Source: Azorinus chamasolen
Lineage: Eukaryota > Mollusca > Bivalvia > Cardiida > Solecurtidae
Direction of reading: 5' to 3'
Length of the DNA: 64,000 nt
Assembly (NCBI GenBank): GCA_963576725.1
Contig: OY755242.1
Coordinates: forward strand, 64,980,324-65,044,323
The notes beneath the pieces were generated by a model that worked only from the letters and a program-made list of their open reading frames with translations, was not told the origin of the DNA and made no database searches. The position numbers and the translations under genes are program-made. This document shows, in pieces, positions 714-61,135 of the stretch (the stretch's first letter is position 1; each line of letters begins with the position of its first letter).

Positions 714-1168
714 TACAGTAAAACAGTAAAAACCCTCTAAACTGGACGTTCAATTTAACCCTTCACTTGCTATTCACGTCAATATACCTACCTGTAAATA
801 GTGAAAACCCAGATGAGACAGCTCCTGCAGGAGCTGTCTCATCAGGGTCTGCACTATTTACAAGTTGACTATGCAACCAGTGCACTCCACAGCAGTGATT
901 GCACAGCGAAATATTTGTACACAGTGAATATATAATTATGTAATTATACAACAGGGCATGGGTAAAGAAGAAGAAATGTGTTTTAAAATTCAGCAAGCGA
1001 AGGGTTAATATAAATATCGGGTTTGCAGAAAAGTGTAGCTAAATGCAGAGCGAAAGTCATGCAAAAGGCTCCTTTAGGATGACTTCCATCCTGCATAAAG
1101 CAGCAACCTGCCTAAATGTATCTGAATTCTCCCCTACTAGAATTCCAGTTTAGAGGGATTTTACTGTA
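714..1168. mobile_element. Pogo-like MITE family B, copy B1, with family A element nested inside
   Basis: The ends are TACAGTAAAAC... and ...TTTTACTGTA, flanked by TA, with a CTCTAAAC(C/T)GG subterminal block on each side. CAG-starting ends and a TA site are typical of Tc1/mariner/pogo elements (family knowledge). The right half keeps the family interior (GCAGAGCGAAAGTCATGCA, then the tip CTCCTTTAGGA and a degenerate return arm). The left half is split by A1 at a TTAA. The B hairpin is degenerate here compared with B5 at 52608. Confidence 0.75.
755..1008 (-). mobile_element. piggyBac-like MITE family A, copy A1
   Basis: A 254-bp unit bounded by TTAA on both sides, with inverted ends CCCTTC(G/A/T)CTTGCT. 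TTAA target sites and CCC-starting ends are the piggyBac signature (family knowledge). Near one end is a perfect hairpin, stem about 793-862, whose tip is GCTCCTGCAGGAGC at 821-834. The other end is a unique ~140-bp arm also found at 9350 and 59265. It is inserted into B1, so it is younger than B1. No coding capacity, so it needs a transposase from elsewhere. Confidence 0.8.
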
Positions 1169-1366
1169 CATACGTTAGAGATCACGACTGTTAGCATCTG
1201 AAACTGGTTCGCCGATTATAATTAGATATACACTTATCTGATACGTTTTAATTTGCCCATATGACATAGTGGATGAAGATGATAACCAATTTCGTCCATT
1301 TATATCATTCTATTTCGATATTCCAACTGAAGTGGAAGTGTATCGAATTTTGGTGTCGTTTGTACT

Positions 1367-1598
1367 AACCCTTTCTTTCATATGAACGCCTTTCTCACAT
1401 TTGCAAAAAGAGTAGAGCAAGAACAGACTGCTCCTTTTGGAAATGCCTAATCAGGGTCCGCTCTGTGTGCTTATGGTAGAAAAAAATCTCACCATAAACG
1501 TTCTGCATGAGCCACTATTTCGGGTGTTCATATGTTTTATAAAAAAATAAACCAATTCATGTTAGTGACGTCATTAGTTTCAACAGGAAACGGTTTAA
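1367..1598. mobile_element. Degenerate family E TTAA element
   Basis: It opens with AACCCTTTCTTTCATATGAACGCC, close to the E ends at 27349 and 42808, and ends near ACGGTTTAA. The core CAGACTGCTCCTTTTGGAAATG is a decayed version of the E hairpin, followed by the matching AATCAGGGTCCGCTCTG. Arms are substituted and the stem would be weak, so this is an old copy. Confidence 0.55.
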
Positions 1599-1841
1599 TA
1601 TAATGTGCATATCCATACTATAGCTTTCAACACGTACATGTAACATGTATAAGTTTGCATTTTCAGCTAAACACTTTCGATACCTCTGAACAACACTTTG
1701 TTTTCACTGATATCAGCGTGTCATGAATACGACATATACATGTACACTTCAACATTCACAACCACTAATATGCTACTACCACACCTATCACTGGTATGAT
1801 ATCTTCTACTATTCTTAGAACAACTAAAAACTCGACTATTC

Positions 1842-1920
1842 TTAACCCTTTCCTCCATAAATATGCCTTTCTATGCCTTTGCAAACAGAGCAGACCCAGA
1901 TCAGACGGCTCCTAAAGGAG
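1842..1920. mobile_element. Half of a TTAA element with F-type end and E-type core
   Basis: It starts TTAACCCTTTCCTCCATAAA, the end type of the F copy at 11393. Instead of the F stem it carries the E stem (AAACAGAGCAGACCC, then CAGACGGCTCCT). The copy stops about six bases past the dyad (1914/1915) and joins the tRNA-containing sequence at 1921. It is both a chimera and a dyad-broken half element. Confidence 0.65.
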
Positions 1921-1986
1921 CATGGTAAGCCAGAGGCCCTGGGTTCGAGTCCCAGTCCAGTCACAACTTTTTCACCATGTTACATT

Positions 1987-1997
1987 TGGCGCCCAAC
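1987..1997 (+). other. Putative tRNA-Lys primer-binding site
   Basis: TGGCGCCCAAC matches the first 11 bases of the tRNA-Lys(1,2) primer site of LTR retroelements, then diverges. Its position two bases downstream of the LTR-like repeat ending ACA is where such a site belongs. Eleven bases alone are weak evidence. Confidence 0.45.
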
Positions 1998-2177
1998 ATA
2001 AATAACGCACGGGGTGATTTATATGAAGATAATATGGAAATTATATGAAGATAATTTGTAATAATAAGAAACTCGTGGAGTGTTCTTTGAGTTAGAATTC
2101 GGGACGAATTATTGTGTAGAAGGGGTGTGTGTAGCCGGGTAGAGATTATGGTGAAATAAGTTGATAGGCTTTACTGT

Positions 2178-2250
2178 GTGGCTTGGTAGCTCAGTCGGTA
2201 GAGTGTTGGCATTGTAAGCCAGAGGCCTTGGGTTCGAGTTCCAGTCGAGT
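2178..2250 (+). other. tRNA-like domain (Thr-like anticodon TGT)
   Basis: GTGGCTT and GAGTCAC can form a 7-bp acceptor stem including G-T pairs. TAGCTCAGTCGG is an A box and GGTTCGAGTTCC a B box. An anticodon stem TTGGC/GCCAG encloses ATTGTAA, giving anticodon TGT. It fits an RNA polymerase III promoter. The T stem has an irregular B-box side and a copy lies at 1921, so this is treated as the head of a repeat and not as a functional tRNA gene. Confidence 0.6.
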
Positions 2251-2273
2251 CACAACTTGTTCACCATGTTACA

Positions 2274-2990
2274 TTATGGCATCTTGTATACTACTTCGGC
2301 CAACATTCATATCCGTATTGTGTTGCCGTATTTGCAGTATCTCAAAGACAAATATATCGGGGGCTTAATTATTATATGGAGATACGCACATCTTTACAAT
2401 GCATAACTTCCTTTAAATAATTTAATAAATTAATGGTATGGACAACTGGTTAAGCTCATTTATGATGATTAGTTATATTACGTTTCTCATGCTGGTGTTC
2501 ATTCTTAAACATACATATACAATCTGAAACACTTTACTGTGCATTTGAAATCAATCAGAAATTAACATTTCAAATGCAGATTCTGAATTGGTGAAGTAAA
2601 AGAACGAATTTTGTAGTTATGGTTTTATGTAGAATGCCACTATATTCATACTTACATTGTCCGTTTTTAATTCAAACGTCCTAATCAACATTGCATCGAT
2701 TATGGAGTCAATATACGCGTTTGTTTGCATTTAAATTGCTTATAAAGTTATTTGTCTACAGCATTGGTAAATACGTTTAGAGTAGTATATTGTGTTTCCT
2801 GATATTTGCGTAAAATGCAGCGGATAGGCTACTTGGTACGTTCTCATTCATAGACTGACATTGCCACGATTTAGAAAAGAATTGCTGACAAATTAACAAA
2901 CATGTTAACATGTGAATGGCTGATGCCCCACCACTTACATAGGGGATAGATATGCATTCGTCCGTACGTTCGTATGTACCAACGTACGTC
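2274..2990. other. No feature recognised
   Basis: AT-rich sequence without a gene or repeat family I can name. A small inverted repeat around CGTACGTTCG...CGTACG lies at about 2963-2989. Confidence 0.45.
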
Positions 2991-2994
2991 CGGC

Positions 2995-3165
2995 CCGAAT
3001 GTTTTGGCATGCGGTAGGTTGTTGATTCTACTCGGATGCTCTTCCGTGCACGAACCAATGCAATTTGTGCCATGCACAGAAGAGCCTCTGTGGTCTTCCT
3101 CCACCTGTAATCAGCGGGACATCGTGATATGACTAGAATACTGTTAAAGCGACGTAAAACCTTAT
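2995..3165 (+). mobile_element. SINE family X fragment X1 (head missing)
   Basis: It matches the body and tail of the SINE at 58776: a TTCTAC block, paired CGTGCACGAACC/GTGCC motifs, CTTCCTCCACCTGTAATCAG, then TATGACTAGAATACTGTTAAA and CGACGTAAAACC. The tRNA-like head is absent, which is usual for 5'-truncated SINE copies. Four copies in this window share this tail. Confidence 0.7.
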
Positions 3166-3270
3166 AAGAAGCAACCTCTGAAGTTATTTGTCCTAAAAAT
3201 ATGGAACGTCAATAAAATATCATCAGGATGTGAACGAGCGCGCCTTGGTATTTTCAAAATGCAATCGCTA

Positions 3271-3497
3271 TTAACCCTCTGCCTTTTTTATCATTCTACC
3301 CTTTATGAATATTAATTAGGCAAATCTTTACAAACATAATTATACGCGGTTATATTGAAATGATTTCCCGGATAGAGCATGCAGGAATGGATTTTCCATG
3401 GCAAACAGTGCAGACCCAGATGAGAGAGCTCTTATAGGAGCTCTCTCATCTGGGTGTACACTGTTTGTAGATGCAACAACAGTTGTGACTGGGTTAA
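3271..3497. mobile_element. piggyBac-like MITE, E-related with its own core variant
   Basis: It runs TTAACCCTCTGCC to GGGTTAAC, with TTAA at both ends. The hairpin begins GGCAAACAGTGCAGACCC and returns as CTGGGTGTACACTGTTTG. The stem reads GATGAGAGAGCTC and the tip TTATAGGAGC, one base off the GCTCCTNNAGGAGC core. The unique arm (3280-3390) differs from other E copies. Confidence 0.7.
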
Positions 3498-3539
3498 CAT
3501 TGATTGAGGTATTAACCTTGAGCTGGTAAAAATATGGAC

Positions 3540-4130
3540 TTTTAGGATTGTGTTTTTGGTTACGCTGGAGCTATTTGTGCTAATAAAATGACACTTTGGA
3601 TACTTACTAATAAATCACCTGGGTATATTCATTCATCCGCAAGGAACATTGACGGAATTATGGGCTTTAATGATGTGACCGTTGGCAATTTTAGATTTGT
3701 GGACCGTACTTATCAGCATGTAAAATTGAAAATACCCGGGTACTTTCACCTTACTACGATGAAGATTATTTGAGTTATGGGCCTTGGTGTTGTGAAAAGA
3801 TTCTATTTGAAGTCTGTGTCGCATGCATTTCTGTAACAGTTGTTTCTAGAATGATATAACTTCAATCAGCATGAATACTTGTGCTTCTGCATATTTTCGT
3901 CCAACCACAATTAGCATGGGCTTTATTTGTAAAACATGTCATTTTTAATTGTGTGTCGCATAAAAGATTGAAAGTATTATTACTGGAATCTAAAACCTAG
4001 GGAATGTGTTGGTCAGCATATAAATGCGCGCACCCGGACATTTTTTCCAATTGCAATACATGTTGATGGAGTTATGGGCCTTGGTACTGTGGACATTGAT
4101 GATTTGTATTTTAGCTAGAATAAAGCTGCA
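3540..4130 (+). repeat. Old degenerate repeat units with a GAGTTATGGGCCTTG motif
   Basis: Variants of (G/A)ATTATGGGCTTTAATGATGTG, GAGTTATGGGCCTTGGTGTTGTG and GAGTTATGGGCCTTGGTACTGTGGAC recur near 3656, 3772 and 4071. Each follows a partly similar CACCCGG or TACCCGGGTA stretch. Spacing is irregular, so this is a decayed array or a dispersed family. No function is inferred. Confidence 0.4.
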
Positions 4131-4489
4131 CACATTTTTTTGTTTTAATGTCAGTAAAATTTAAAACGCACTACCTCGCGTGCATGTACATTAAATATTA
4201 ATCTGAATAATATTCATGTTTCTTTGAACCCAGAATGCAACGCAGTTGCAGTTGGGAAAATCCATGTCCTCTTGACACAGTTCTGGGTAATCATTAAAAT
4301 GCCATGACATATTGTGTATTGACACATGGCATTACACCTTTAAACTAACTTGATGATAAGTCGAGTCTTCAATATCAGACTTACAACAATAGCACATGTA
4401 CTACTTTTACAATTTGTCTAGCCATAAACGCACATGGATCCAACTACTGCTGTGGTATATTTGGTTCATGTTTGTTAAATGTTCAAGTA

Positions 4490-7535: not shown

Positions 7536-7743
7536 TTAACCTTTACAATGCGGGACACCAGTCACTAAAGTCCTTTGGAAACAATGTAGCCCCAGAGGAG
7601 CCCTCTCCTCAGGGTTTGCAATGTTTGTCATGCTACACATTTCTTTAGAACACTCCCTACATATTTCACTATAAGCTTGACCTGTTTGAACTTTGGAATA
7701 GTCCATTTTGAAATTCAGCGTTGTAATGGTTAAACACAACCAT
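7536..7743. mobile_element. TTAA MITE family M (single copy here)
   Basis: Inverted ends TTAACCTTTACAATGC and GCGTTGTAATGGTTAA differ by two bases and include the TTAA target on both sides. The core AGAGGAGCCCTCTCCTCAGG is a short palindrome. The rest is non-coding. It is piggyBac-like by target site only, since the ends start CC and not CCC. Confidence 0.65.
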
Positions 7744-8547
7744 GCTTATTCTTGAAGTGGGCATGTTTTACAAACGTCCAGAAGCTCTCTGCATGACCAT
7801 TAAATAATGGCAACGACAATAAAACAACACTAAAACATGTTGACGTATTTATGCATTATTCCTATGCAAAGTAGCTTTGATACTGGTGTGGTAAAATGTA
7901 CAGTTAGGTACACAGTGTTTATGGCTGTTATCGCCGGGCGCTACAGGACCACCTGGAATACTCTTTTACTTAAATTATTTGAAAGGTTTCTGTTTTACAG
8001 CAAAACAAATATCAGGATGTGCAGCATTGCACATTAAACACTCGTTAAAGAAATGTAATATACACCCGTTGTATAATGTAGTCGTTTGGTCTCCCAGTGT
8101 CTATTAAACTGAAACTATATTACCATATAGATGTTATATATTCAAGAAACAGACATGAATATATGAATTTAGCACACATAACAGTAATTCACGATACATA
8201 AATAGGTATTAACCAGAATATATTCATCATTCTTGCAATTCTTTTATTTCGTTTTATACGTCTGAATATGCATATCCCCTAAGTATAGAATCTAAGTATA
8301 GTTGATATGCATATGATAGAAAATATAAACTAACATAGAATTGGGGGTTATTTCGTAATTCGCTGAGCAAAGCAAAACGACGAATATAGGCTACAGCTGT
8401 TAGTACATGCCGGTAAACGTTAATGTTGGTCAGTCTATGAACGATAACGTTTAACAGTCTAACACCATCAAATCTAAATGACATGTGTCACATTAAGATG
8501 CCTAGATATGTGTTTTCCATTTATGTTCAAAAAGTTGTGTCAGCGTT
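7744..8547. other. No feature recognised
   Basis: AT-rich. Open frames at 7837-8037 and 8254-8484 are short, with no recognisable protein motif. Nothing else visible. Confidence 0.45.
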
Positions 8548-9349: not shown

Positions 9350-9598
9350 TTAACCCTTCTCTTGCTGAATTTTGAAATACATTTCTTCTTCTTTACCCAT
9401 GCCCTGTTGTATAATTACATATATATTCACTGTGTACAAGTAGTTCGCTGTGCAATCATTGCTGTGGAGTACACTGGTTGCACAATCAATTTGTAAATAG
9501 TGCAGACCCTGCTGAGACAGCTCCTGCAGGAGCTGTCTCATCTGGGTCTTCACTATTTACAGGTATGTATATTGTCGTGAATAGCAAGCGAAGGGTTA
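9350..9598 (+). mobile_element. piggyBac-like MITE family A, copy A2
   Basis: TTAACCCTTCTCTTGCTG at the left and AGCAAGCGAAGGGTTA at the right. The hairpin (9492-9561) has the tip GCTCCTGCAGGAGC at 9520-9533. Opposite orientation to A1 and close to it in sequence, so probably a fairly recent copy. The right flank reads TTAC, so one target-site base has changed. Confidence 0.8.
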
Positions 9599-10223
9599 CA
9601 GGAATGCCCATATTATACCTTGTCCAATTATCAATTGACTATATAAGGGCACCCATAACCCGTGTCAGTAGGTGGGTTTATGTCTATGTGGTAACATTCT
9701 AAAGAAAACAGGACCAGTTATCTTTGCCAATTGGCCAAAAGTGTATGAACGAGAAAATATTCAATATTTGCATGAATAGCGTCTAGCACCAAAGGCTATC
9801 CATGGTGACACATGGTAGCAGCACTGAGAAATGATGCGCCATCATATGCCATCCTTACAAATTAGGGTCGCAAAATTAAAGCTCGGCATGGAGAGCTTTG
9901 AGGAACACCCCGTCATGGAAGGCATGTCGCCATGTCAACTCCCGAAATAGTCAATTCCTTAGTATGGGTATAGGTGACAGACGAGTTACTGGGATAATCG
10001 CTAGTACTGTCGGTATGTCTCCGGAAATAATTCACATCAGAAGTCTGAAAATTTATTAAAAACCCCAAAGGACTGAATATGTGGCGTGCTAAACTTTGAG
10101 ACAAACTGAGGTTTGTGACTCTGGATGAAATATTGGTCCATCATTTCACCCCAGTAAAACCTTCAGTAAAACATTAAAAGATCCATGCTGAGTTTATTTA
10201 GGTATATCATTGTTTAGTTGTAG
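9599..10223. other. No feature recognised
   Basis: Mixed-composition spacer. A short imperfect palindrome lies near 9790-9810 (CCAAAGGCTATCCATGGTG). No gene or repeat family identified. Confidence 0.4.
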
Positions 10224-10571: not shown

Positions 10572-10814
10572 TTAACCCTTTCCCTGTTGAATATTTATAT
10601 CGGAAAAAAATACGTCATAAATATTAATTAGATTTATTTTGGCTTATGGAAACATGACATTTTGGCTCAGGAAGAAGCTGTAAAATGAGTTCTATATTAC
10701 ACAATAAACAAACAGAGCAGACCCTGATCAGACGGCTCCTATAGGAGCCGTCTGATCCGGGTCTAGTCTGTTTGCCGATGCGTCAAAATTAGTTTATATA
10801 AGGGAAAGGGTTAA
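10572..10814. mobile_element. piggyBac-like MITE family E, well preserved copy
   Basis: Perfect TTAA at both ends, with inverted ends CCCTTTCCCT(G/T)T. The unique arm contains GGCTCAGGAAGAAGCTGTA, shared in reverse with 27349. The hairpin is AAACAGAGCAGACCCTGATC, stem CAGACG and tip GCTCCTATAGGAGC (10735-10748), returning to GGGTCTAGTCTGTTTG with two mismatches. Non-coding. This is the best reference copy of E. Confidence 0.85.
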
Positions 10815-11392
10815 AATAACACTATGAATATATACGGACTATTTATGATTACGATTTTTCGCTACATGAACAATATTATAAGGTATAGGGTGACCTTTAT
10901 AATCCAAATTGAAATGAACTGTATATATGACAGTTTTGCTGACCGTTTAATTTCGTCTTTATGTTACACAAATGACGCTATTATATGTAATAACATGATA
11001 TTATAATTATTATTTAGAATGACAAATCAATATATTTTGCAAGTCAAAATAACTTTTCCATTAGCTCATGAAATACCAAATGGCTTTCGTATGTAAAGTG
11101 ACGTCGGCTGTATGTCTAAATTTCATTCCATTGTTTCGAGCGTTAATTTCTCGGTCTCCAACAATGTAAATTCTGAACGACATCTCACAAGTCAACACTA
11201 TTTGAACATATCAATAAATATGATCAATCGCATGATTCTAGATAACATGATGTTGTCATCTGTATGTAGAAGATAGACGTATGCACTTACTTTTTACAAT
11301 TTTGATTTATATTGAAATTAGTATTATATATTTCTGTCATACGTTTCAAACACAAATTCACATTTCTGCATGTTCATATTGATTAAACCCTT
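10815..11392. other. No feature recognised
   Basis: AT-rich spacer. The open frame at 10824-11006 has no recognisable motif. Confidence 0.45.
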
Positions 11393-11613
11393 TCCTCCAT
11401 AAATACGCCTTTCTACTTTTCTGTAAAATTCGCTTTTTGAAACCATTGTGATAAGTAGAGCGTTTGTTCCTAAGGAGCAAATGCTCTATTTATCACAATG
11501 GTTTCAGGACTACAAAATTCTAAAAAAATCCTTTTCTCCACTTAATGCTCCTTTTCGGTAGATTTATTCAAAGAGGTTGAATCTAAAATTAGCATATGAG
11601 GGAATGGGTTTAA
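11393..11613. mobile_element. piggyBac-like MITE family F, copy F1
   Basis: TTAA(A)CCCTTTCCTCCATA at the left and TATGAGGGAATGGGTTTAA at the right. The hairpin GAAACCATTGTGATAA...AGAGC, tip region GTTCCTAAGGAGCAAATGCTC, then TTATCACAATGGTTTC, gives stems of about 35 bp. The centre is slightly decayed: a base is lost relative to GCTCCTATAGGAGC. The unique right arm includes TCCACTTAATGCTCC. Confidence 0.8.
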
Positions 11614-12921: not shown

Positions 12922-13129
12922 TACAGTAAAACCTCTCTATAACGACCACTAGATTACATCAAGTATTTTGTGTTAAAGGCAGATGTATGCTTAAAGTAAG
13001 GTGAAAGTAAAACAGAACGCTCCTATAGGAGCGTTCTGTTTTACTTTCATTTTGCTTTAAGCAACCACCTATCAAAAATACCATCTAATTAACATAATTT
13101 AGTGGTCGTTATAGAGAGGTTTTACTGTA
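12922..13129. mobile_element. Pogo-like MITE family C, copy C1
   Basis: Ends TACAGTAAAACCTCTCTATA and its reverse complement at 13110-13129, continuing CGACCACTA. The interior is a near-complete foldback. The hairpin is GAAAGTAAAACAGAAC, tip GCTCCTATAGGAGC (13019-13032), GTTCTGTTTTACTTTC. CAGGTGG-type blocks flank it (GGCAGATG and CAACCACCT). Non-coding. TA target site. Confidence 0.85.
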
Positions 13130-15850: not shown

Positions 15851-16032
15851 TACAGTAAAACCTCTCTATAACGGCCACTAAATTACGCCAAATATTTTAT
15901 GATAAAGGCATGTGGCTGCATAACGCAATTTGAAAGTAAAACAGAACGCTCCTATCGGAGCGTTCTGTTTTACTCTCACCTTGCTTTTAGCAGCCACCTG
16001 CCCTAAATACCAACTAATTAACACAACTTATA
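15851..16032. mobile_element. Pogo-like MITE family C, copy C2, right end missing
   Basis: The left end TACAGTAAAACCTCTCTATA and the full hairpin are present (ACAGAAC, GCTCCTATCGGAGC, GTTCTGT). The right arm reads to TAACACAACTTA, then departs to unrelated sequence, so the right TIR is lost. Confidence 0.75.
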
Positions 16033-16487
16033 CATGGTTTGTGACGCGTTTTACATTATAGAATAAATACGTTTCCTATCTGTTGAAACGAAACTGCAAT
16101 TAATTTGGCTACACATGAATCAACAGATAAGATCATGAAAGCAATAAATTACACAGTACACAAGCCTAGCCAGACTGAAGGCTGAGACGTTTAATTACAG
16201 GAAAATATTAAAGGCGCTCGTTCAGCTAACAGCTAACGATATCAGGACAATGAGACATTTTAAAATTGTTTATTGTGTTCTTGTTTTATCAAATCTGAAA
16301 ACATTAATGAGAGTTGTAAACAGCTGTAATAATGCATTTTATTATTATGAATGGCTAACATAAATCTCATCTTATATTAAACGACGTTCTCCCACCGCGA
16401 TCTCACAAAACTGACTTGAAACTGAACTTCGACTGATTTTACAAATACAGCAAACCCAATCTAAACCGGAATTCCAGTAGAGAAGCC

Positions 16488-16702: not shown

Positions 16703-16735
16703 GATACGTTTAAGCAGATAGCCGCTTAACCCATT

Positions 16736-16948
16736 ACCTCCTATTTTAAATAAAACCTCTTTGAACAAATCTACTGAAATGGAGCATTAACTAGAGAAAA
16801 GGAAACTGTTAGAATTTTGTAGTTTGAAACTATTGTGATAAACAAAGCATTTGCTACTATAGGAGCAAATTCTCTATTTATCACAATAGTTCAACAAATT
16901 GACTTTTACAGAATCGTCAAAAGTCGTCAACATGAGGGAATGGGTTAA
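16736..16948. mobile_element. piggyBac-like MITE family F, copy F2, nested in B3
   Basis: TTAACCCATTACCTCCTAT at the left and CATGAGGGAATGGGTTAA at the right. It is inverted relative to F1: the unique arm with AATCTACTGAAATGGAGCAT lies on the left. The hairpin GAAACTATTGTGATAAA...TGCTACTATAGGAGCAA, then TTTATCACAATAGTTC, is slightly decayed. It sits 33 bp from K1 inside the same host. Confidence 0.8.
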
Positions 16949-17269: not shown

Positions 17270-17468
17270 CTACAGTAAAACCCCTCTAAACCGGAATTCC
17301 AATAGAAAAGACTTTAGATACTTGTAGGTAGGTGGCTGCCAAATTCATGGTGAAAGTCCTCCTGGAGGAGCTTTCTGCATTATTTTCACCCATCTTTACG
17401 CTGCCACCTGTCTACCAGACCGAGGTTTATGTTTAATTGGATGTGTAGATTAGAGGGTTTTTACTGTA
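17270..17468. mobile_element. Pogo-like MITE family B, copy B4
   Basis: Ends TACAGTAAAACCCCTCTAAA and TAGAGGGTTTTTACTGTA. The interior CATGGTGAAAGTCCTCCTGG, then AGGAGCTTTCTGCATTATTT, shows a partly deleted left stem: the GCAGAAAG portion is missing. GGTGGCTGCC and GCTGCCACCTGTCT flank it. It lies 190 bp from B3. Confidence 0.8.
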
Positions 17469-19334: not shown

Positions 19335-19552
19335 TACAATAACCCCCGCTAATGCGACCACCTAAAAGAGGTATGATTCTGGGTGTTAGATGCAGATGGT
19401 TGCTTAATACAGGGCAAAAGTAATGCAGAAAGCTCCTAGAGGAGCTTTCTGCATTATTTTTGTCCTGCATTAAACAACCACCTGCTTATAAATACAACCA
19501 TGCTTATTCATTAAGTGGTCGCAATAGAAGGGTTCTACTGTATATTATATCG
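19335..19552. mobile_element. Pogo-like MITE family P, copy P1
   Basis: Ends TACAATAACCCCCGCTAATG and ATAGAAGGGTTCTACTGTA, with GCGACCACC and GTGGTCGC inside. The hairpin is AAAAGTAATGCAGAAA, tip GCTCCTAGAGGAGC (19432-19445), TTTCTGCATTATTTTT. The subterminal GATGGTTGCTTAATACAGGG and CTGCATTAAACAACCACCTG match B and C. The stem resembles B while the ends resemble C. Confidence 0.8.
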
Positions 19553-25194: not shown

Positions 25195-25411
25195 ATAACC
25201 CTTTCGCTGCCAAACTCTGTCGTCTGCTAACTTTGTCGTCTGCTACAAATTTTCATTTTTTTTATTTTCTTCATTTTGTTTTTAAAAAAACATAGCAACA
25301 GTAACAAACAGTTTGGATCCTGATGAGACACCGAGTTACTCGGCGTCTAATCTGGATCCAAACTGTTTGCATAGGTAACCACAGATCCGGCATTGGCAGC
25401 GAAAGGGTTAA
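25195..25411 (+). mobile_element. piggyBac-like MITE family K, copy K2
   Basis: Inverted ends CCCTTTCGCTGCCAA are perfect over 15 bp, with ATAA at the left and TTAA at the right. Direct repeats of GTCGTCTGCTA follow. The hairpin AAACAGTTTGGATCCTGATG, GACACCGAG, TTACTCGGCGTCT, AATCTGGATCCAAACTGTTT has two mismatches. Best complete K copy in the window. Confidence 0.85.
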
Positions 25412-27348: not shown

Positions 27349-27600
27349 TTAACTGTTTCCCTTATGTAAGCGCATTTTGACGCATCTGCAAACAGAGTAG
27401 ACCCAGATTAGACGGCTTCTATAGGAGCCGTCTGATCAGGGTCTGCTCTGTTTGCTAATTGGTGTAATATAGATATGGTTCTACAGCTTCTTCCTGAACC
27501 AAAATGTCTTGTGCTCATATGCCATTATAAAACAATATCTTGTTAATATTCTTGACGTCATTATTTCCCACATGAATATTCATCAGAGAGAGCAAACAAT
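27349..27600. mobile_element. piggyBac-like MITE family E, right end decayed
   Basis: TTAACTGTTTCCCTTATGTA at the left. Hairpin AAACAGAGTAGACCCAGATT, CAGACGGCTTCTATAGGAGC, CGTCTGATCAGGGTCTGCTC, TGTTTG. The unique arm CTACAGCTTCTTCCTGAACC is the reverse complement of the arm in the 10572 copy. The expected GGGAAAGGGTTAA end has become AGAGAGAGCAAAC. Confidence 0.75.
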
Positions 27601-30628: not shown

Positions 30629-30775
30629 TTATCCCATTCCCTCATATTGACGCCTTTTAATATCTTTTGATACCTCTGTACAAGCCATCATGTGAAACCA
30701 TTGTGATAAAAAGAGCATTTGCTCCTACAGGAGCAAAATTAATGCTCTATTTATCACAATGGTTTCAAAACTATG
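30629..30775. mobile_element. piggyBac-like MITE family F, copy F3, next to or inside J
   Basis: The left end TTATCCCATTCCCTCATATT corresponds to the right end of F1 inverted. Hairpin GAAACCATTGTGATAAAAAG, AGCATTT, tip GCTCCTACAGGAGC (30721-30734), AAAATTAATGCTC, TATTTATCACAATGGTTTC. A four-base insertion sits in the right stem. The other TTAA end is not visible after 30775. Confidence 0.7.
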
Positions 30776-36225: not shown

Positions 36226-36363
36226 TGTCCTGATAACAATTTGGTCGAAAAATTGATCTTAGCTTGAAAATAAATATGTAGGTGAAATAAACGGCAACAA
36301 TAATTTACTCAGCAGGCTAAAGGTTAATGATTCATATAGTAACCGGGAATGTGTATAACCACT

Positions 36364-36476
36364 CAACCCTTTCACCACCGAAGTCTCATTAATTCACTAC
36401 GACAAATAGTGCAGTCCCAGATCAGACGCCGCCTTTTCAAGGCGGCGTCTGATCAGGGACTTCACTTTTTGTCTCA
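36364..36476. mobile_element. TTAA-type MITE family N, partial
   Basis: TCAACCCTTTCACCACCGAA at the left, then ACAAATAGTGCAGTCCCAGA, CAGACGCCGCC, TTTTCA, AGGCGGCGTCTGATCAGGGA and CTTCACTTTTTGT. Stem of about 35 bp with a GCCTTTTCAAGGC tip, unlike the other families. The right end is not recognisable. Confidence 0.6.
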
Positions 36477-36726
36477 TTCTCTATTTCTATATATGTGATT
36501 TATTATTTTGAAATTTGCATTGATTTATCCCAATTCCTTACTGTACCGCAATATGTAACAACATTTGGATTGCAGACGACAATTAGAATTTTTAGGTTAA
36601 AGGGTTTTTCTCTTTGTCACCCTTCCTTTTGTTTGCCTTGCGTCTTTGTGCTTGTTATTTGTTCATGTGTGGAACGTTTGTCCCTGGTTCTTGTGTGTCT
36701 TTTGGTGTTTTCTGTGTTCATTTCGT

Positions 36727-39089: not shown

Positions 39090-39297
39090 TACAGTAAACT
39101 CCCTCTAATGCGACCACCTAAAATAGGTATCATTCTGAATGGTAGAGGCAGGTGGTAGCTTTATGCATGACAAAAGTAATGCCGATAGCTCCTGGAGTAG
39201 CTTTCTGTATTACTTTTGCCATGCATTAAGCAACCACCTGATTATAAAGACACTTATTTTATTTATTAAGTGGTCGCATTAGAGGGGTTCTACTGTA
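39090..39297. mobile_element. Pogo-like MITE family P, copy P2
   Basis: Ends TACAGTAAACTCCCTCTAAT and ATTAGAGGGGTTCTACTGTA, each followed inside by GCGACCAC. The hairpin ACAAAAGTAATGCCGATAGC, TCCTGGAGTAGCTTTCTGTA, TTACTTTTGCC has a few mismatches at the tip. Complete, including both TA flanks. Confidence 0.85.
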
Positions 39298-42807: not shown

Positions 42808-42995
42808 GTAACCCTTTTCTTCATATAAACGCTTTTCATGCATCTGCAAACAGAGTAGACCCAGATTATATGGCTCCTATAGGAGCCGTCTGATCAGGGT
42901 CTGCTCTGTTTGCTAATGGAATTTACTTTCTTAATTGACTACAATGGTCTAAGGTATTTAAATTTTGAATTCGTTTAGAACATGGAAATGGTTAA
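42808..42995. mobile_element. Family E element, right arm short or decayed
   Basis: GTAACCCTTTTCTTCATATA, AACGCTTTTCATGCATCTGC, AAACAGAGTAGACCCAGATT, ATATGGCTCCTATAGGAGCC, GTCTGATCAGGGTCTGCTCT and GTTTGCTAATGGAAT match the copy at 27349 closely. After 42925 the E arm is replaced; a possible end GGAAATGGTTAAC lies near 42985. Confidence 0.7.
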
Positions 42996-43584: not shown

Positions 43585-43656
43585 TGTCTAAATATTGTGT
43601 TGTTTTAACCCTTCTCTTGCTGTCTAAATATTGTGTTGTTTTAACCCTTCTCTTGC
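43585..43656 (+). repeat. Exact 36-bp tandem duplication at the start of A3
   Basis: TGTCTAAATATTGTGTTGTT plus TTAACCCTTCTCTTGC occurs twice in a row without change. The unit is flank plus the first bases of the A element, so the duplication postdates insertion of A3. Confidence 0.95.
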
Positions 43657-43821
43657 TGAATTTTAAAATACATTTCTCCTTCTTCACCCATGTCCTGTTG
43701 TATAATTACATACATCTTCACTGTGTACAAGTATTTCGCTGTGAAAATCACTGCTGTGGAATGCACGGGTTGTACAATGAACTTGTAAATAGTGCAGACC
43801 CAGATGAGACAGCTCCTGCAG
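43641..43821 (+). mobile_element. Family A element, copy A3, broken at the hairpin dyad
   Basis: TTAACCCTTCTCTTGCTGAA and the full unique arm are intact, then the left stem TGCAGACCCAGATGAGACAG, CTCCTGCAG. The A sequence stops at 43821, three bases past the dyad (43818/43819), and continues as a TATTAGTATTGTTATTATTA tract. The right stem and right end are absent. Confidence 0.8.
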
Positions 43822-46417: not shown

Positions 46418-46558
46418 GCATGTATCCTATCTTATGATTGGTCAAATTTGAGTTCTCAAGCTTTTGATTGGTCAGATTCGAGCCTTTGGCTCAAATCTGA
46501 CCAATCAAAAACTTGAGAACGAACTCAGATTCAACTAAAAAGCTTTATAAGCATGGAC
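46418..46558. repeat. Foldback element T, copy T1
   Basis: TTGAGTTCTCAAGCTTTTGA, TTGGTCAGATTCGAGCC, TTT, GGCTCAAATCTGACCAATCA, AAAACTTGAGAACGAACTC, then AACTAAAAAGCTTTATAAGC and ATGGACC. Arms of about 55 bp around a 3-base centre. Each arm holds ATTGGTCA or TGACCAAT. The outer left arm is decayed (GCATGTATCCTATC). Confidence 0.75.
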
Positions 46559-47790: not shown

Positions 47791-47929
47791 CCATGCTTAT
47801 AAAACCTTTTTTTGGTTAGATTTGAGTTCTCAAGCTTTTGATTGGTCAGATTTGAGCCAAAGGCTCAAATCTGACCAATCAAAAACTTTAGAACGAACTC
47901 AGGCTCAACTAAAAGTTTTATAAGCATGG
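47791..47929. repeat. Foldback element T, copy T2 (best copy)
   Basis: CCATGCTTATAAAACCTTTT at the left and AAAAGTTTTATAAGCATGG at the right. Arms run about 68 bp to a centre GAGCC-AAA-GGCTC. TATAAAA and CCAAT words are present in both arms. Relative to T1 the central triplet is AAA in place of TTT. Non-coding. Confidence 0.8.
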
Positions 47930-52560: not shown

Positions 52561-52607
52561 CCGCTCCATCATAGGTATTCACCGTTCAATTGTGATACAT
52601 GTAAGTA

Positions 52608-52815
52608 TACAGTATAACCTCTCTTAACCGGAATTCTAGTAGATAATAATTTAGATACTTTTAGGCAGGTGGCTGCTTAATGCAGGGTGAAAGTCATGCA
52701 GAAAGCTCCTCTAGGAGCTTTCTGCATGACTTTCACCCTGCATTAAGCTGCCACCTGTCTCCAAGACCGATATTCATACTGAATTTAACTGCCGGTTAAG
52801 AGAGGTTTTACTGTA
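52608..52815. mobile_element. Pogo-like MITE family B, copy B5 (reference copy)
   Basis: Ends TACAGTATAACCTCTCTTAA and GAGAGGTTTTACTGTA, with CCGGAATTC and AACTGCCGG inside. GGCAGGTGGCTGCTTAATGC, AGGGTGAAAGTCATGCAGAA, A, GCTCCTCTAGGAGC (52705-52718), TTTCTGCATGACTTTCACCC, TGCATTAAGCTGCCACCTGT form a hairpin with arms of about 50 bp and no visible mismatch. TA at both ends. Non-coding. Confidence 0.9.
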
Positions 52816-52982: not shown

Positions 52983-53348
52983 TACAGTGCTCCCTCCCTA
53001 CAACGGCCCTCTCAATAACGATTCCCTCCTTACAACAACGCATGTCACTGTTTCCGAAACAACAAGGCTCCAGAAACAACTTTTTTCTATCGTATTTTCT
53101 TTATGCCTCCATCAAACCCTATGTTGTGACCACTCTTTAGAATCGTCACACTGTGACGATTCTAAAGAGTGGTCACAACATAGGATTTGATGGAGGCATA
53201 ACAGTTTTAGTTCTAGACATACACCTTATCTTGGGATCTGCAAACAAGCTAATTATGTTTGATTTTCCCTCCCTATAAAAACTCCCTCTGAACAACACAT
53301 ACAATCTTCGTATCCCAAAGGGTGTCGTTGAAGAGAGGGAGCATTGTA
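52983..53348. mobile_element. Pogo-like MITE family S, copy S1, with near-perfect 48-bp hairpin
   Basis: Ends TACAGTGCTCCCTCCCTACA and GAGAGGGAGCATTGTA, with ACAACG and CGTTG inside. CCCTCcCTATAAaAACTCCC repeats occur near the right end. The hairpin arms 53103-53150 and 53152-53199 pair with one mismatch around one base. Their sequence (CTCCATCAAACCCTATGTTG, GACCACTCTTTAGAATCG) is that of family D. So a D-type core sits within S-type ends. Confidence 0.85.
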
Positions 53349-53512: not shown

Positions 53513-53703
53513 CAGCTAAGATGCGTAAATTTAAACAGTTTCAAGAGTAAATCCTTTACATCTCCATCAAACCATCTCCATCAAACCATATACTGTGACC
53601 ACCGTTTAGAATCGTCTCTCCGAGACGATTTTAAAGAGTGGTTACAATATAGGGGTTGATGGAGAAATGACGACTTTAGTATTTTGGTACGCACCTTTAT
53701 CTG
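53513..53703. mobile_element. Family D palindromic element, copy D5
   Basis: CAGCTAAGATGCGTAAATTT at the left and GGTACGCACCTTTATCTG at the right. The hairpin includes ATACTGTGACCACCGTTTAG, AATCGTCTCTCCGAGACGAT, TTTAAAGAGTGGTTACAATA. The left part has ATCTCCATCAAACC doubled in tandem (14 bp). Complete outer ends. Confidence 0.75.
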
Positions 53704-54130: not shown

Positions 54131-54335
54131 TACAGAACAGTTGCAAACCGGGATTCTAGTAGATAAGCATTTAGATACTTTTAGGAAGGATACTGCTTAA
54201 TGTATGGTGACAATCATGCAGAAAGCTCATAGAGGAACTTTTTGCATGACTTTTAATCTGCACTAAGCTGCCACCTGTCTCAAAGACCGATATGTTTACT
54301 AAATTGAACGTCTGGTTTAGAGAGGTTTGACTGTA
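54131..54335. mobile_element. Pogo-like MITE family B, copy B6, moderately decayed
   Basis: TACAGAACAGTTGCAAACCG and TTTAGAGAGGTTTGACTGTA. Hairpin CAATCATGCAGAAAGCTCAT, AGAGGAACTTTTTGCATGAC with several changes. The inner modules GATACTGCTTAATG and CTAAGCTGCCACCTGTC are present. Confidence 0.75.
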
Positions 54336-54621: not shown

Positions 54622-54829
54622 TACAGTAATACCTCTCTAAACCGGAATTCTAGTAGAGAAGAATTGAGATACTTTTAGGCAGATGGCTGCTTAATGCAGA
54701 GTGAAAGTCATGCAGAAAGCTCCTTGAGGAGCTTTCTGCGTGACTTTCACTCTGCATTAAGCTACCACCTGTCTCCAATACCGATATTTACACCAAATTG
54801 GACGTCCGGTTTAGAGAGGTTTTACTGTA
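54622..54829. mobile_element. Pogo-like MITE family B, copy B7, intact
   Basis: TACAGTAATACCTCTCTAAA and TTTAGAGAGGTTTTACTGTA. Core GCTCCTTGAGGAGC with GAAAGTCATGCAGAAA / TTTCTGCGTGACTTTC. The central pair differs from B5 (TG versus CT). Both TA flanks present. Confidence 0.9.
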
Positions 54830-56189: not shown

Positions 56190-56391
56190 TACAATGCCGT
56201 AAAACATCTCTGTAGCGGAATTTTAGAGGGAAGATTTTAGACACGTTTAAACAAGTGGCTGCTTAATGCAGGGTGAAAGTCGTGCAGAAAGTTCCTAGAG
56301 CCGCTTTCGGCATGACTTTCACCCTGCATTAAGCTGCCACCTGTCTCCAAGGCCGATGTTTTAACGTCCGGTTTAGAGGGGTTTTACTGTA
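56190..56391. mobile_element. Pogo-like MITE family B, copy B8
   Basis: TACAATGCCGTAAAACATCT at the decayed left end and TAGAGGGGTTTTACTGTA at the right. Hairpin GGGTGAAAGTCGTGCAGAAA, GTTCCTAGAGCCGCTTTCGG, CATGACTTTCACCC with three tip changes. GTGGCTGCTTAATGCAG and CTGCATTAAGCTGCCACCTG are perfect. Confidence 0.85.
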
Positions 56392-57121: not shown

Positions 57122-57399
57122 TAAATAAAAGTTTGAAGCTGTTCCGTGATTTTAACCACCACTTGGCGTAGCGTTTGTTTCAAAATGTTTGTTGTTGTCC
57201 TTGAATAAATGTTTTACTGATGGAATTCAGTGTGATGATCGGTGGACATTACTAGTCTCTGTTTGACAATACGTGCTGTAATTGAGCTTGATCACCAAGC
57301 CAAAATATTGGAAGAACATTCAAACAGGACGCACCACCCACAAAAGGATACAACACAAACCATCATTAAACATGAACAACACAATTAACATGACAATTG

Positions 57400-57660
57400 C
57401 ACAAAAAGACATACATGACGAAACGCACAAAAAGAAAGACGTGGCAATGACCATAAACAAAACAACAAGGTAGACCATATGGTGAAAGCAAGAGTACCGC
57501 CTTGGAATGGTCAGTAGCCAAACAAACACTACTGGGGGCTTACACCAGGTGTGTAGATAGATAACTTATCACACCTTCACTCAATCCAAAATGCATAGAA
57601 CAATTCCCCTTCCAGAGATACCCCTAGTCTCATGTCAATTCACCATGTTAAAAAAACTGA
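57400..57660 (+). repeat. Dispersed repeat family G, copy G5 (divergent)
   Basis: ACGAAACGCACAAAAAGAAA, CCATATGGTGAAAGCAAGAG, TACCGCCTTGGAATGGTCAG and CACTACTGGGGGCTTACACC correspond to the middle of G2. Flanks differ. On the minus strand it has the LTIPRRYS word like the LAVPRRYF of G2. Confidence 0.5.
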
Positions 57661-58099
57661 ACAGTTTTTTCGGCTGGTCATAGCTAAATGTGTTGAAATG
57701 CATTTTGGTCAATAGGTTTTTGTGTGTGTTTTTTTCTGTGCATGGGTAGTGAGCCACAAAATGTATATCCAAGTTCATAATTATATACATTGAATTATTG
57801 AAATCAGAAACTTGATTACGTTGGTGCGTTTGTCTTAAATAAACATAACTACTATAATGAATAAATATGACTAGTGTCGTAGCATATTCAATACTTTCGG
57901 ATAGAGTTTAATACATTTTAAATTGCGGGGAATGTAATTATTTGTTTTACAACAATGTAAGTAGGCTATCAAAATAATTCAAAAGCAAAACGAGAAACGA
58001 TTTAGGTCAGGGTTTGATTCAACACATTTGGTGCCCTTGCTCTCCCCAACAACGTATATATTTATCTATTTTTTCTGTTTGATATGTGTTTACTGTTCG
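57661..58099. other. No feature recognised
   Basis: AT-rich spacer, nothing identified. Confidence 0.4.
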
Positions 58100-58255
58100 T
58101 TATATAGAGGATTAATTCCCACTCCAACCTAATCTTTCTAGCCATAAACATCGATTTACTCCGAAATGTTTGCTGAGAAATAAAGAACATTGGAGATCCA
58201 TTAGTCCATACTGTTGATGTATAACAGCAATAAAATCAATTCGCCTAGTACTTTG
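58100..58255 (+). repeat. Dispersed repeat W, copy 2
   Basis: TTAATTCCCACTCCAACCTA, CCATAAACATCGATTTACTC, AAATGTTTGCTGAGAA, TTAGTCCATACTGTTGATGT, AATCAATTCGCCTAGT. Collinear with 26815-26960. Confidence 0.6.
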
Positions 58256-58320
58256 TATGGGATTCAGCCATGTTAGAGATACTGAAAATATTCCATATAT
58301 AGATTATATCACATAAAAGA

Positions 58321-58551
58321 TACAGTGCTCCCTCCCTACAACGACCCTCTCAATAACAATTTGTGACAATTCTAAAGAGTGGTCACAACATAGGGTTTGA
58401 TGGAGGCATAAAGGTTTTAGTTCTCGAAATACAACTTATCTGGGGATCTGCAAACAAGCTAATTATGTTTGATTTTCCCTCCCTATAACAACTCCCTCTG
58501 AACAACACGTACGATCTTCGTATCCCTAAGGGTGTCGTTGTAGAGAGGGAA
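58321..58551. mobile_element. Pogo-like MITE family S, copy S2, left hairpin arm deleted to the dyad
   Basis: TACAGTGCTCCCTCCCTACA, ACGACCCTCTCAATAACAAT, then directly TGTGACAATTCTAAAGAGTG, the right arm of the S1 hairpin starting at its centre (58361-58362). The remainder to GTCGTTGTAGAGAGGGA matches S1, and the last bases of the right end are lost. Compared with S1 the deletion removes about 110 bp ending exactly at the dyad. Confidence 0.85.
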
Positions 58552-58775
58552 CCAAACTTGTTGAATACTTTACCGAGCTTAGGATAGAACAACATACATG
58601 TATTCTTGAACTAGTGTAAGTGTGTGATTACTTTAACATAACGCCTGCGACATGGTTTAACTGTGACAGAATTACCAATGACTGTACTGCTGTCTTCACC
58701 CTAGTTTTATGTAGTGTCGACTGCCCGTTCCTTTAAAATGAATATATGCGTGTGTGCGTACATCATTTACTTTGT

Positions 58776-59065
58776 GGCATCCGTGGCGGAGTGGTTATGG
58801 TGTTCGACTGACAATCGATCAGCCCCTCAATGGTGTGGGTTCGAATCCTGGTCTTGGCATTTGGAATGTTCATGTGAGAAAGCCTTCCAGCTGCAGCTGG
58901 CTTGCGATAAGTCGGTGGTTCTACCTGCATGTTCTTCTTTGCATGAAACGGTGCATTTTTACCGTGCACTGAAGAACCTCTGGGGTCTTTCGCCACCTGT
59001 AATTAGCTGGAAGCCGTGGCATGACTGAAATTCCTTTAAAACGACGTAAAGCCCGATACATTGTA
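58776..59065 (+). mobile_element. SINE family X, copy X4 (best copy)
   Basis: tRNA-like head: CCGTGGCGGAGTGGTTATGG (A box), TGTTCGACTGACAATCGATC, AGCCCCTCAATGGTGTG (long variable arm) and GGTTCGAATCCTGG (B box). The body follows: TTCCAGCTGCAGCTGGCTTG, TTCTACCTGCATGTTCTTCT, CCGTGCACTGAAGAACCTCT, GGGGTCTTTCGCCACCTGTA. The tail is AATTCCTTTAAAACGACGTA, AAGCCC. Leu/Ser-class tRNA origin by layout. The frames across it are artefacts. Confidence 0.85.
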
Positions 59066-59264
59066 CTTCTGAGGTTCCTACATAATCGTCTATTGCACAT
59101 ACCCAACCTATCTTATGATCCATAAAAAGAAAGTTTCAGTGTTTTATATGACGCCACTGGCTGATTTAATAGACGGTCAATGATAGGGTCAGAATCTGAC
59201 GTCAAGATCATGCCAATGTGCATAATATCAGTAACATTATAGTAATGCACTTGTGCCCAATGTC

Positions 59265-59508
59265 TTAACCCTTCGCTTCACGTCAATATACCTACCTGTA
59301 AATAGTGAAGACCCAGATGAGACAGCTCCTGCAGGAGCTGTCTCATCAGGGTCTGCACTATTTACTAATTGATTGTGCAACCAGCGCACTCCACATCAGT
59401 CATTGCACAGCGAAATACTTGTACACAGTGAAGATATATGTAATTATACAACAGGGCATGGGTAAAGAAGGAGAAATGCATTTTAAAATTCAGCAAGAGG
59501 AGGGTTAA
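59265..59508 (-). mobile_element. piggyBac-like MITE family A, copy A4
   Basis: TTAACCCTTCGCTTCACGTC and CAGCAAGAGGAGGGTTAA with TTAA at both ends. Hairpin tip GCTCCTGCAGGAGC (59325-59338). Same orientation as A1. A small deletion near the left end (AGCAATT lost relative to A1). Confidence 0.85.
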
Positions 59509-59529
59509 AATAGACATAGATAACTATTA

Positions 59530-59600
59530 TTGACCCAGATCAGGGGTACATAAATGAGAACTCTGATCAGGGTCGACACTGTTTGATGAACCCACCAACA
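59530..59600. mobile_element. Degenerate TTAA-type hairpin
   Basis: TATTGACCCAGATCAGGGGT, ACATAAATGAGAACTCTGAT, CAGGGTCGACACTGTTTG. The return half is of the E/L kind; the left half is decayed. Confidence 0.4.
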
Positions 59601-60261
59601 TCAATGACGTTCATTTTCCAGTAGACATTTGTTTGTCTGTGTCACCCTCCACATGAAAAATGGAGTGAGAAATTGAGTTTTCCAGCATTAATATGGGAAT
59701 AAACCGTATAAATAGATGTGAAATGAAATACGCTGTGTGTCTTTAGTAAACAAATTAGATATTATATGTATAGTGTTTCTTCACCAAATATACATCGATG
59801 TACAAAAGAGTAAATCAATAAAAGATAATCTTATTTCTATATTAGACGCAATACAAAACTCAGCAATCGCATTTGTTTGGAATACCCTTGTGGATAATTG
59901 TCTCCGATACTACGGTTATGTTAGGAGGATGAATTAGCATAAGACGTTGTAGAAGATACACAGAGTTGCATCCTTTGTGCTTGCCTTATTGACAACAAGG
60001 TTACAAATATTACAATAAACAGTGTGCTTACCAGGAGGATGTTTGAGCTGCGTATGTCTACATACAAGATGGCATTAATCTAAAAGCATATCCTTTATAG
60101 ACATCAATGTTTCGTGCCTGTGTTTTAGGCTGAAATAAGCCATTTAAACCACGTTTTTGAAGTCCACTTGCCCATTTACTATATAATGAAGCAATACAAA
60201 TCAATACAAATTTCGTTTGGAGGAGTGTTTCTACAAATGTTCACTTGTGGATGAAATACGT

Positions 60262-60335
60262 CAAGCAAACAGTGCAGATCAGGGTCAGACGGCTCATACA
60301 GGAGCCGTCTAATATGGGTTTGCACTAACTCACTA
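60262..60335. mobile_element. Family E hairpin core without ends
   Basis: AAGCAAACAGTGCAGATCAG, GGTCAGACGGCTCATACAGG, AGCCGTCTAATATGGGTTTG, CAC. The E stem with a GCTCATACAGGAGC tip, one base off the shared core. Confidence 0.6.
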
Positions 60336-60925
60336 TGTCATTTTAGGCAACAACGGTCACGCGTGGGCTAAACTATGTTAAACCTGCAATTGAACTGAAC
60401 CAGGTATTAACTTTAACATGTTAAACCAGACAACAACACTGCGAGATGAACCTGTAAAATATATAAACATTTTAACCCATATTTGAAAAACGGAGAAATT
60501 ATATTATGGAATGGCGTTGGTGATACTGTAATAATATAAGTACCGTATTATATATGCCGATACTATATCAGATATATCAGCACATTCGATAATCATTAAT
60601 GCACAGCTCCTGATTAATCATGAATTAAAATGTAATAGGTAAACGTCGAAAATGGTAGATGCTGTCCGATAGCGGTACGTCTTTCGGGTTGAAAGATTAC
60701 AGACAACAACCCCAAATTTGAATATTTTAACAATTACCAGCTTTGTTTCAACAATAAATCCTAATAGCTTTTCAGCATTGTAGCATTATGAGTATTCACT
60801 GTGTCTCCTGTTTTAATTTTGATTCCACTTTTCATATACACATATCAACTGATATGATACGACCGTTCCGAATCAGTAGCCCTGTCTTCATTCTATTTCT
60901 TGTTTGTATCTATGATATTACAACC
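60336..60925. other. No feature recognised
   Basis: AT-rich spacer, nothing identified. Confidence 0.4.
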
Positions 60926-61135
60926 TACAGTAAAACCTCTCTATAACGACCACTCACTAAATTACATCAAGTATTTTGTGTTAAAGGCAGGTGGATGCTA
61001 AAAACAATGTGAAAGTAAAACAGAACGCTCCTATAGGAGCGTTCTGTTTTACTTTCACATTGCTTTAAGCAACCACCTGCCAAAATACTAACTAATTAAC
61101 ACAATTTAGTGGTCGTTATAGAGAGGTTTTACTGT
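60926..61135. mobile_element. Pogo-like MITE family C, copy C3, intact
   Basis: TACAGTAAAACCTCTCTATA and TATAGAGAGGTTTTACTGTG. ACAGAAC-GCTCCTATAGGAGC-GTTCTGT core within GTGAAAGTAAA / TTTACTTTCAC. GGCAGGTGGATGC and GCAACCACCTGCC flank it. One end base has changed (TG for TA). Confidence 0.9.

Follow-up and report, generated by a model that had tools for sequence, protein, structure and literature searches.

In this study, a 64,000-nucleotide stretch of the genome of the bivalve Azorinus chamasolen (assembly GCA_963576725.1, contig OY755242.1, positions 64,980,324 to 65,044,323; hereafter the window) was found to carry repeated copies of one 14-bp dyad, GCTCCTNNAGGAGC, in which GCTCCT arms surround a free 2-bp centre. 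Judging from its sequence context, this dyad forms the tip of long DNA hairpins located in short, apparently non-coding transposons, i.e., miniature inverted-repeat transposable elements (MITEs). The same tip is found on three different stems and in elements with two types of ends, which suggests that it was passed between two unrelated kinds of element. The likeliest reading, though a tentative one, is that apices were exchanged between nested hairpins and then amplified by ordinary transposition.

The window contains 12 exact sites, compared with a mean of 0.00 in 100 shuffles, and when up to two mismatches are allowed the number rises to 22 (0.58 expected). Every tip position listed in an initial annotation of the window, which had proposed the dyad as a hairpin tip common to six transposon families, proved correct on a pattern scan, though the list was incomplete, containing 10 exact sites and overlooking those at 1908-1921 and 42873-42886. 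The whole assembly (1.72 Gb) contains 389,419 exact sites, or one per 4.4 kb, while the pattern read backwards, used as a control, occurs 58 times and the expectation is 22 from base composition or 19 from a first-order Markov model. Chance origin at the level of single sites is thus excluded.

Unselected sampling covered 264 kb of this one genome, namely the window (GC content 34-39% in 4-kb steps) and 20 stretches of 10 kb (200 kb) taken from contigs C1-C10 at the 20-Mb and 40-Mb positions. The 20 stretches hold 38 exact tips, against 45 expected from the genome density. Among their dyads with 6-bp arms and a 2-bp loop, GCTCCT ranks first with 38 of 175, the runner-up arm reaching 8, so that for loops of this size the tip passes the comparison with other dyads which the initial annotation had itself proposed; with loops of 0-8 bases (1,301 dyads in total) TTTTTT leads with 42 and GCTCCT is second with 39. 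The variability reported for the central two bases is borne out by 50 tips from the sample and window, which read AT in 20 cases, AG/CT in 10, GC in 8, AC/GT in 8 and other pairs in 4.

Long palindromes are frequent in this genome: 81 were found in the 200 kb of stretches, of which 32 bear the exact tip, 22 a close variant of it and 27 neither. As the stretches contain 38 exact tips, the remaining six sit in weaker palindromes. There are 25 long palindromes in the window and none in one base-shuffled version of it. When four window palindromes were folded as single DNA strands, the resulting hairpins had a 4-base loop and energies of -30 to -56 kcal/mol, which is 12 to 18 standard deviations lower than for shuffled sequences.

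For assignment to stems, an arm was accepted when at least 17 of 28 bases agreed, and 80 exact tips were classified (38 from the stretches, 12 from the window and the first 30 of contig C1). All 80 adjoin at least one arm of three stems: stem 1, GCAAACAGAGTAGACCCAGATCAGACG, in families A and E; stem 2, TGAAACCATTGTGATAAATAGAGCATTT, in family F; and stem 3, TTAATGCAGGGTGAAAGTCATGCAGAAA, in families B, C and P. When both arms were scored, which removed one tip for its short flanks, 48 of 79 tips lay on stem 1, 21 on stem 3 and 5 on stem 2, with one arm unrecognised in 5. Over the 20 bases beside the tip, A and E agree at 15 and B, C and P among themselves at 13-17, while the stem of F is separate from both. 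The claim that several stems carry the tip therefore stands, and the six independent families are ruled out, as by stem comparison they collapse to three (A with E; F; B with C and P), E and F additionally sharing a homologous end. Genome-wide, the GACN outer-base forms of the tip (stem 1) number 118,715 and the GAAN forms (stem 3) 76,605, each with a control count of 0. Two candidates, a freely moving tip and a free-standing mobile palindrome, are ruled out by the position of all 80 classified tips beside an arm of stems 1-3.

Elements with stems 1 and 2 have TTAACCC..GGGTTAA ends; the A and E consensus sequences are 250 bp long with the palindrome approximately 35-40 bp from one end, and that of F is 229 bp. 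Elements with stem 3 are 208-209 bp long with TACAGTA..TACTGTA ends and a central palindrome. The two end types predicted earlier (TTAA/CCC for A, E and F; TA/CAG for B, C and P) are real according to a paired-end search, which found the TTAA type in 10/12 copies of A, 11/19 of E and 9/14 of F, and the TA type in 3/5 copies of B, 9/12 of C, 4/8 of P and 0/2 of P2, five palindromes being left without a family. The F copy with its tip at 30721 has a single recognisable end, TTATCCC at 30629, and those at 11383-11612 and 16726-16948 have both.

These elements are short, have inverted ends and occur in high copy number, as MITEs do. Most copies with paired ends measure approximately 190-260 bp within a range of 188-436, the long ones probably being mis-paired or nested. 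A weak check of coding capacity, based on the eight longest open reading frames (ORFs) of the window, gave one match, to DDE_3, below threshold and outside these elements. Elements A, E, F and H (a further stem-1 family) show TTAA target duplication, the clearest single-TTAA cases being those at window 16726 and L047:798, and the paired-end search gave CCC..GGG rather than RR..YY termini for the TTAA group. In the TA group the ends read TACAGTA..TACTGTA or nearly so, the TA itself being hard to distinguish in AT-rich flanks. As the two groups differ in their ends, they presumably depend on different transposases. CCC termini are the rule for piggyBac, and the TA-flanked CAG..CTG elements B, C and P we take to be of the pogo/Tc1-mariner type.

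The alignments of the E consensus with those of C and P are confined to 26 bp around the tip, with 22/26 identities (CAGAnnGCTCCTATAGGAGCnnTCTG), and E and stem 3 have in common CAGAnnGCTCCT, 26 bp spanning both arms. E and B agree at 20/26, and A agrees with B or P at 20/24. E and F share, besides a homologous 44-bp end (77%), only the 14-bp tip. Because only the block around the tip aligns between end types, common descent of whole elements is unlikely, as had been argued before, and no intermediates linking the two end types were seen.

The significance of these likenesses was assessed by shuffling arms 20,000 times per pair and counting the shuffles that reached the observed score. This count was 5 for E-C, 5 for E-P, 37 for E-F, 50 for F-C and 65 for F-P. 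Two further hairpin families, I and J, were compared with E, C and P and showed no likeness (at least 3,373), the F-I pair giving 318. The method can miss true kinship, since A and H, both on stem 1, gave 18,952.

Variation of the tip on a given stem was followed in clusters built from arms, those with fewer than 5 arms being dropped. Three stem-1 clusters have the consensus tip GCTCCT (E with 134 arms, A with 28 and a third with 5), while cluster H (55 arms) has CCGAGT, 17 of them exactly, and cluster G (21 arms) has CCGCCT, 8 exactly. Stem 1 as a whole shows 0.67 extra states per site in the tip and 0.54 in the stem. Both stem-3 clusters (71 and 30 arms) have GCTCCT, even though their stems differ at 6 of 28 positions. 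In a check for breaks at the apex, among 314 tip-family arms with up to 5 mismatches, a recognisable partner arm was found for 254 and none for 60, some of these partners having decayed.

An opportunity for exchange may lie in the mutual nesting of the two groups, with their apices within a few hundred bases of each other. Joined flanks place A (window 755-1008), E (L040:296 and L047:798), F (L050:4235 and window 16726) and H (L053:3324) inside TA-group elements, and C (L047:1577 and L039:5613) and P (L042:3320) inside TTAA elements. A junction-spanning match was obtained for 10/29 copies of A, E, F and H and for 4/15 TA-group copies; for one TA-group copy, L038:3389, the best match was the element's own flank. 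TTAA elements stand at the TTAA of a TA-group palindromic stem at window 16726-16948, L040:296, L047:798, L050:4235 and L053:3324. Five of the 32 complete TTAA elements stand at a TTAA inside stem 3, defined by no more than one mismatch over the seven bases that flank it, a context present at 73/2,175 other TTAA sites (one-sided p 0.0046, for a context chosen after examples had been seen), and a target preference of TTAA elements for this site is possible. The one G copy entered only this comparison.

We therefore propose, as the reading we favour without considering it settled, that apex exchange took place between nested hairpins. Stem 3 of the TA/CAG group, in which GCTCCT is the tip of every subfamily seen, may have borne the apex for a long time; a short template switch or gene conversion between hairpins may then have transferred it to stem 1 (A and E) and perhaps also to stem 2 (F). 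Mutual nesting would have brought the two apices within a few hundred bases, and ordinary transposition would then have amplified the result to approximately 390,000 exact copies. Only the uniformity of stem 3 and the variety of stem 1 point to this direction of transfer. The suggestion made in the initial annotation, that the tip is a module moving between elements, survives in part: stem-1 subfamilies carry GCTCCT, CCGAGT or CCGCCT and the element types nest in each other, but the tip does not move alone and no hybrids were found among 79 tips. Apices do rearrange, as indicated by tipless F copies and by a stem-3 copy in L053 (approximately 7611-7710, near 7640), which has two apices separated by GGTTGGGGTTA-like sequence.

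A number of observations weigh against apex exchange. No palindrome combining the arms of two stems, such as the form with stem 1 on the left and stem 3 on the right, GATNAGACNGCTCCTNNAGGAGCNTTCTGYWT, was present among the 79 tips. A resembles stems 3 and 2 less than E does (35 shuffles of 20,000 for A-P, 284 for A-C and 486 for A-F), and with approximately five independent stems, hence approximately 10 pairs, the values become approximately 0.003 for E and stem 3 and 0.02-0.03 for F. The uniform tip of stem 3 is weak evidence, because six unchanged positions are expected approximately one time in four without selection. On stem 1, only 2 of 6 positions separate the G tip, CCGCCT, from GCTCCT, a distance that substitutions could have bridged, and 2/21 arms of the G cluster bear GCTCCT; CAGA beside the tip also occurs in the G consensus, so these bases of the 26-bp match may never have been part of an exchanged block. 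In some older F copies the sequence is GCTCC-ATA-GGAGC, which lacks one base of the 14-mer, and the full tip may thus have arisen separately within F. Finally, 2/14 F and 1/12 C copies have a pair of ends of the opposite type, as well as or instead of their own; nesting explains the pairs at window 16828 and L047:1633, and the one at L038:1721 is without such an explanation.

Several of these points favour coincidence or stepwise convergence, according to which two or three founders reached the same six bases and transposition then inflated the match, the tip of stem 1 having drifted from CCGCCT to GCTCCT and that of F having come from its own GAGC/GCTC repeats. The approximately 390,000 copies are not independent, since the 80 classified tips derive from just three stems; the tip of stem 1 varies about as fast as its stem; and GAGCA/TGCTC repeats flank the tip of F. 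Such an origin is possible, though we think it unlikely, since the same six bases on three stems are improbable by chance even after correction, E being matched by C or P in only a handful of shuffles and the F pairs in a few dozen. The pattern was chosen by a reader of the sequence, which bears on the look-elsewhere factor, and coincidence between a few founders keeps some probability.

Selection in cis, also put forward in the initial annotation, found no support as a force acting on inserted copies, in which the tip decays no more slowly than the stem. Per-site divergence, computed from arms admitted with up to 7 mismatches, a threshold that depresses the stem values, is 0.039 in the tip and 0.055 in the stem for C, and for the two arms of A 0.065 and 0.089 in the tip and 0.085 and 0.062 in the stem; it is 0.30 and 0.24 in the tip of E against 0.15 in its stem, 0.23 against 0.14 for B, 0.21 against 0.14 for P and 0.24 against 0.06 for F. 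Constraint on inserted copies is accordingly ruled out, as nothing is kept after insertion, and the tip varies among the subfamilies of stem 1.

Selection confined to source elements is possible, and we regard it as rather improbable. The apex would then be a putative recognition site, e.g., one bound by a dimeric host protein or used in hairpin processing or replication, and its carriers, of whatever kind, would multiply better. This agrees with one dyad, its centre free, recurring on three stems and with two end types; with GCTCCT being the consensus of both stem-3 clusters in spite of their differences in stem, though that uniformity is what one would see about a quarter of the time without selection; and with tips present in families of high (A 0.96, C 0.93) and lower (E 0.85) copy identity. 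Against it weighs the numerous stem-1 family H, in which, among the 75 arms of the divergence analysis, the commonest tip is CCGAGT (20/75). Three F copies without the tip (in L044, L040 and L027) match the F consensus at 97, 92 and 89% identity, and an ancestral tipless family was set aside as their source: these short forms, 3 among the 28 F matches listed, differ in identity and resemble slip deletions between GAGCA repeats, which makes them look like separate losses, as selection on sources would allow. Tipless F elements were seen at L040:1796 and L044:9643, in L027, at L047:5431 and in L053, three of them with an apparent 18-bp deletion between GAGCA repeats.

That the whole hairpins of stems 1 and 3 come from one ancient palindrome whose ends were swapped is very improbable: the 26 bp common to E and stem 3 do extend over both arms, but beside the tip E and the stem-3 families agree at only 7-9 of 20 bases, CAGA included, as against 13-17 between families of one stem, and A and E share left-right differences (CCCA/CCCT), which shows that they inherited their stem as a unit.

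The usual explanation of hairpin MITEs is that they derive by deletion from their own autonomous partner. A shared apex would mean either that superfamilies can exchange the interior of their MITEs or that the apex serves any element carrying it, and at a density of one exact site per 4.4 kb either reading can be tested by counts. It is doubtful that the apex is a putative cis-acting site benefiting any hairpin transposon in this genome and acquired for that reason, by exchange or by convergence, in elements with different transposases; if it were, a single host factor would have approximately 390,000 sites to bind or process across the genome. Annotation tools which join repeats on internal similarity may also fuse unrelated families.

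Table 1. Hairpin elements in the window, with their tips where recognised.
Element	Positions	Strand	Tip	Remarks
A, TTAA ends, stem 1	755..1008	+	821-834, GCTCCTGCAGGAGC	nested in TA-group element ~722-1168 by joined flanks
TA-group	722..1168	+	1068-1081, decayed	interrupted by A element
E, left part only	1842..1921	+	1908-1921	tRNA-like repeat directly after tip
Stem-1, TTAA ends	3271..3497	-	3428-3441, one mismatch	
A	9350..9599	-	9520-9533	
E	10572..10814	-	10735-10748	both ends
F, TTAA-type ends, stem 2	11383..11612	+	decayed	
C, TA ends, stem 3	12922..13129	+	13019-13032	
C	15851..16054	+	15948-15961, one mismatch	right end decayed, boundary approximate
F	16726..16948	-	16853-16866, one mismatch	in TTAA of the stem of a TA-group element
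TA-group	17271..17468	+	17358-17371, one mismatch	left arm partly missing
P, TA ends, stem 3	19335..19542	+	19432-19445	decayed left end read from letters
H, TTAA-type ends, stem 1	25195..25411	-	different tip, CCGAGT	
E palindrome	27388..27455	+	27415-27428, one mismatch	
F	30629..30770	+	30721-30734	no right end found; boundary there set by the stretch examined
G, stem 1	36363..36560	+	CCGCCTT	right boundary is the end of the aligned stretch
P	39090..39297	+	39188-39201, one mismatch	
E	42808..42995	+	42873-42886	right end uncertain
B, TA ends, stem 3	52608..52815	+	52705-52718	
B	54178..54335	+	54225-54238, two mismatches	left end decayed
B	54622..54829	+	54719-54732	
B	56195..56391	+	decayed	
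A	59265..59508	+	59325-59338	
C	60926..61136	+	61027-61040	

Several other features of the window and stretches were recorded. Families I and J lie at window positions 46452-46520, 47826-47894, 53101-53201 and 53575-53665; the tip of I is of the GATTTGAGCC type and that of J is AATCGTCAC or GTCTC, their loops are mostly of 1 or 3 bases, and paired ends of TTAA or TA type were found in 1/8 copies of I and 0/7 of J. The E copy at 1842 breaks just past its tip into a tRNA-like repeat (window 1908-1990), a similar copy of which at 2180-2253 (region 2180-2285) ARAGORN classes as tRNA-Thr and Rfam as tRNA, so this tRNA 'gene' may be the head of a short interspersed nuclear element (SINE). A transposase-like fragment at 34130-34540 matches DDE_3 with 14.5 bits, under the Pfam cut-off of 28.6, and is presumably of Tc1 type. 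At 43585-43658 a 36-bp unit containing TTAACCC is repeated, and at L049:7543-7901 and 7898-8152 two A-type TTAA stretches stand end to end with one TTAA in common.

Searches elsewhere gave little that is related. Strings of the 14-mer, the stem and the stem plus tip matched only unrelated papers (one on Arabidopsis) in the open-licence literature, those for the stem strings being unrelated by title, and no report of a hairpin tip common to MITEs of two superfamilies was found there by title and opening of the abstract. The tip with AGA flanks occurs in two viral contigs, with phage-like genes, and four prokaryote contigs of the collections searched, none of them with a stem at the tip; both viral contigs carry a 10-base piece of stem 2 elsewhere, away from the tip, and two stem patterns gave no matches in the viral collection. 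A protein search with the ORF crossing an A element returned one protein, P0001, that runs across the same A palindrome and has a sequence compatible with the same tip, while a second search gave one weak match, P0002. For bivalves, a transposon survey left MITEs unclassified in the part of its text available (PMC10294476), and neither 'MITE' nor 'palindrom' is present in the accessible portion of the Mercenaria genome paper (PMC8905726).

With regard to known systems, the TTAA group resembles non-autonomous piggyBac-type elements in its TTAA target and CCC..GGG termini, and the TA group those of the pogo/Tc1-mariner type in its TA flanks, CAG..CTG termini and length of approximately 208 bp, both links being made by ends alone. 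Bacterial repetitive extragenic palindromes (REPs) are free-standing, unlike the classified exact tips described here, each of which adjoins an arm of a larger element. The REPs moved by RAYT proteins likewise comprise many short palindromes with a common core, as outlined in an excerpt of PMC2817692. Kolobok elements, which also target TTAA, are characterised in the available part of PMC9587614 by 5'-RR..YY-3' termini, and were ruled out for the TTAA group by its CCC..GGG termini. The highly conserved domain of SINEs is alike only in the idea of a shared block, as the carriers here have DNA-transposon ends. Closer to this idea is MER6, a mariner-type MITE which, in the extract of PMC6887750, carries a SINE V domain gained by nested insertion and spread by the recipient's transposition, so that a sequence block is likewise common to unrelated transposable elements; there the block is a whole inserted SINE domain, whereas here it measures 14 bp at the apex and no insertion of a whole element into the apex was seen. 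The MITE-like repeat of the Lucina pectinata haemoglobin genes, for which the portion of PMC4732748 available describes no sharing of a tip between families, is 210 bp long with 30-bp imperfect terminal inverted repeats and a 77-bp central palindrome, a plan which, compared by description and not by letters, is close to that of the 208-bp elements B, C and P.

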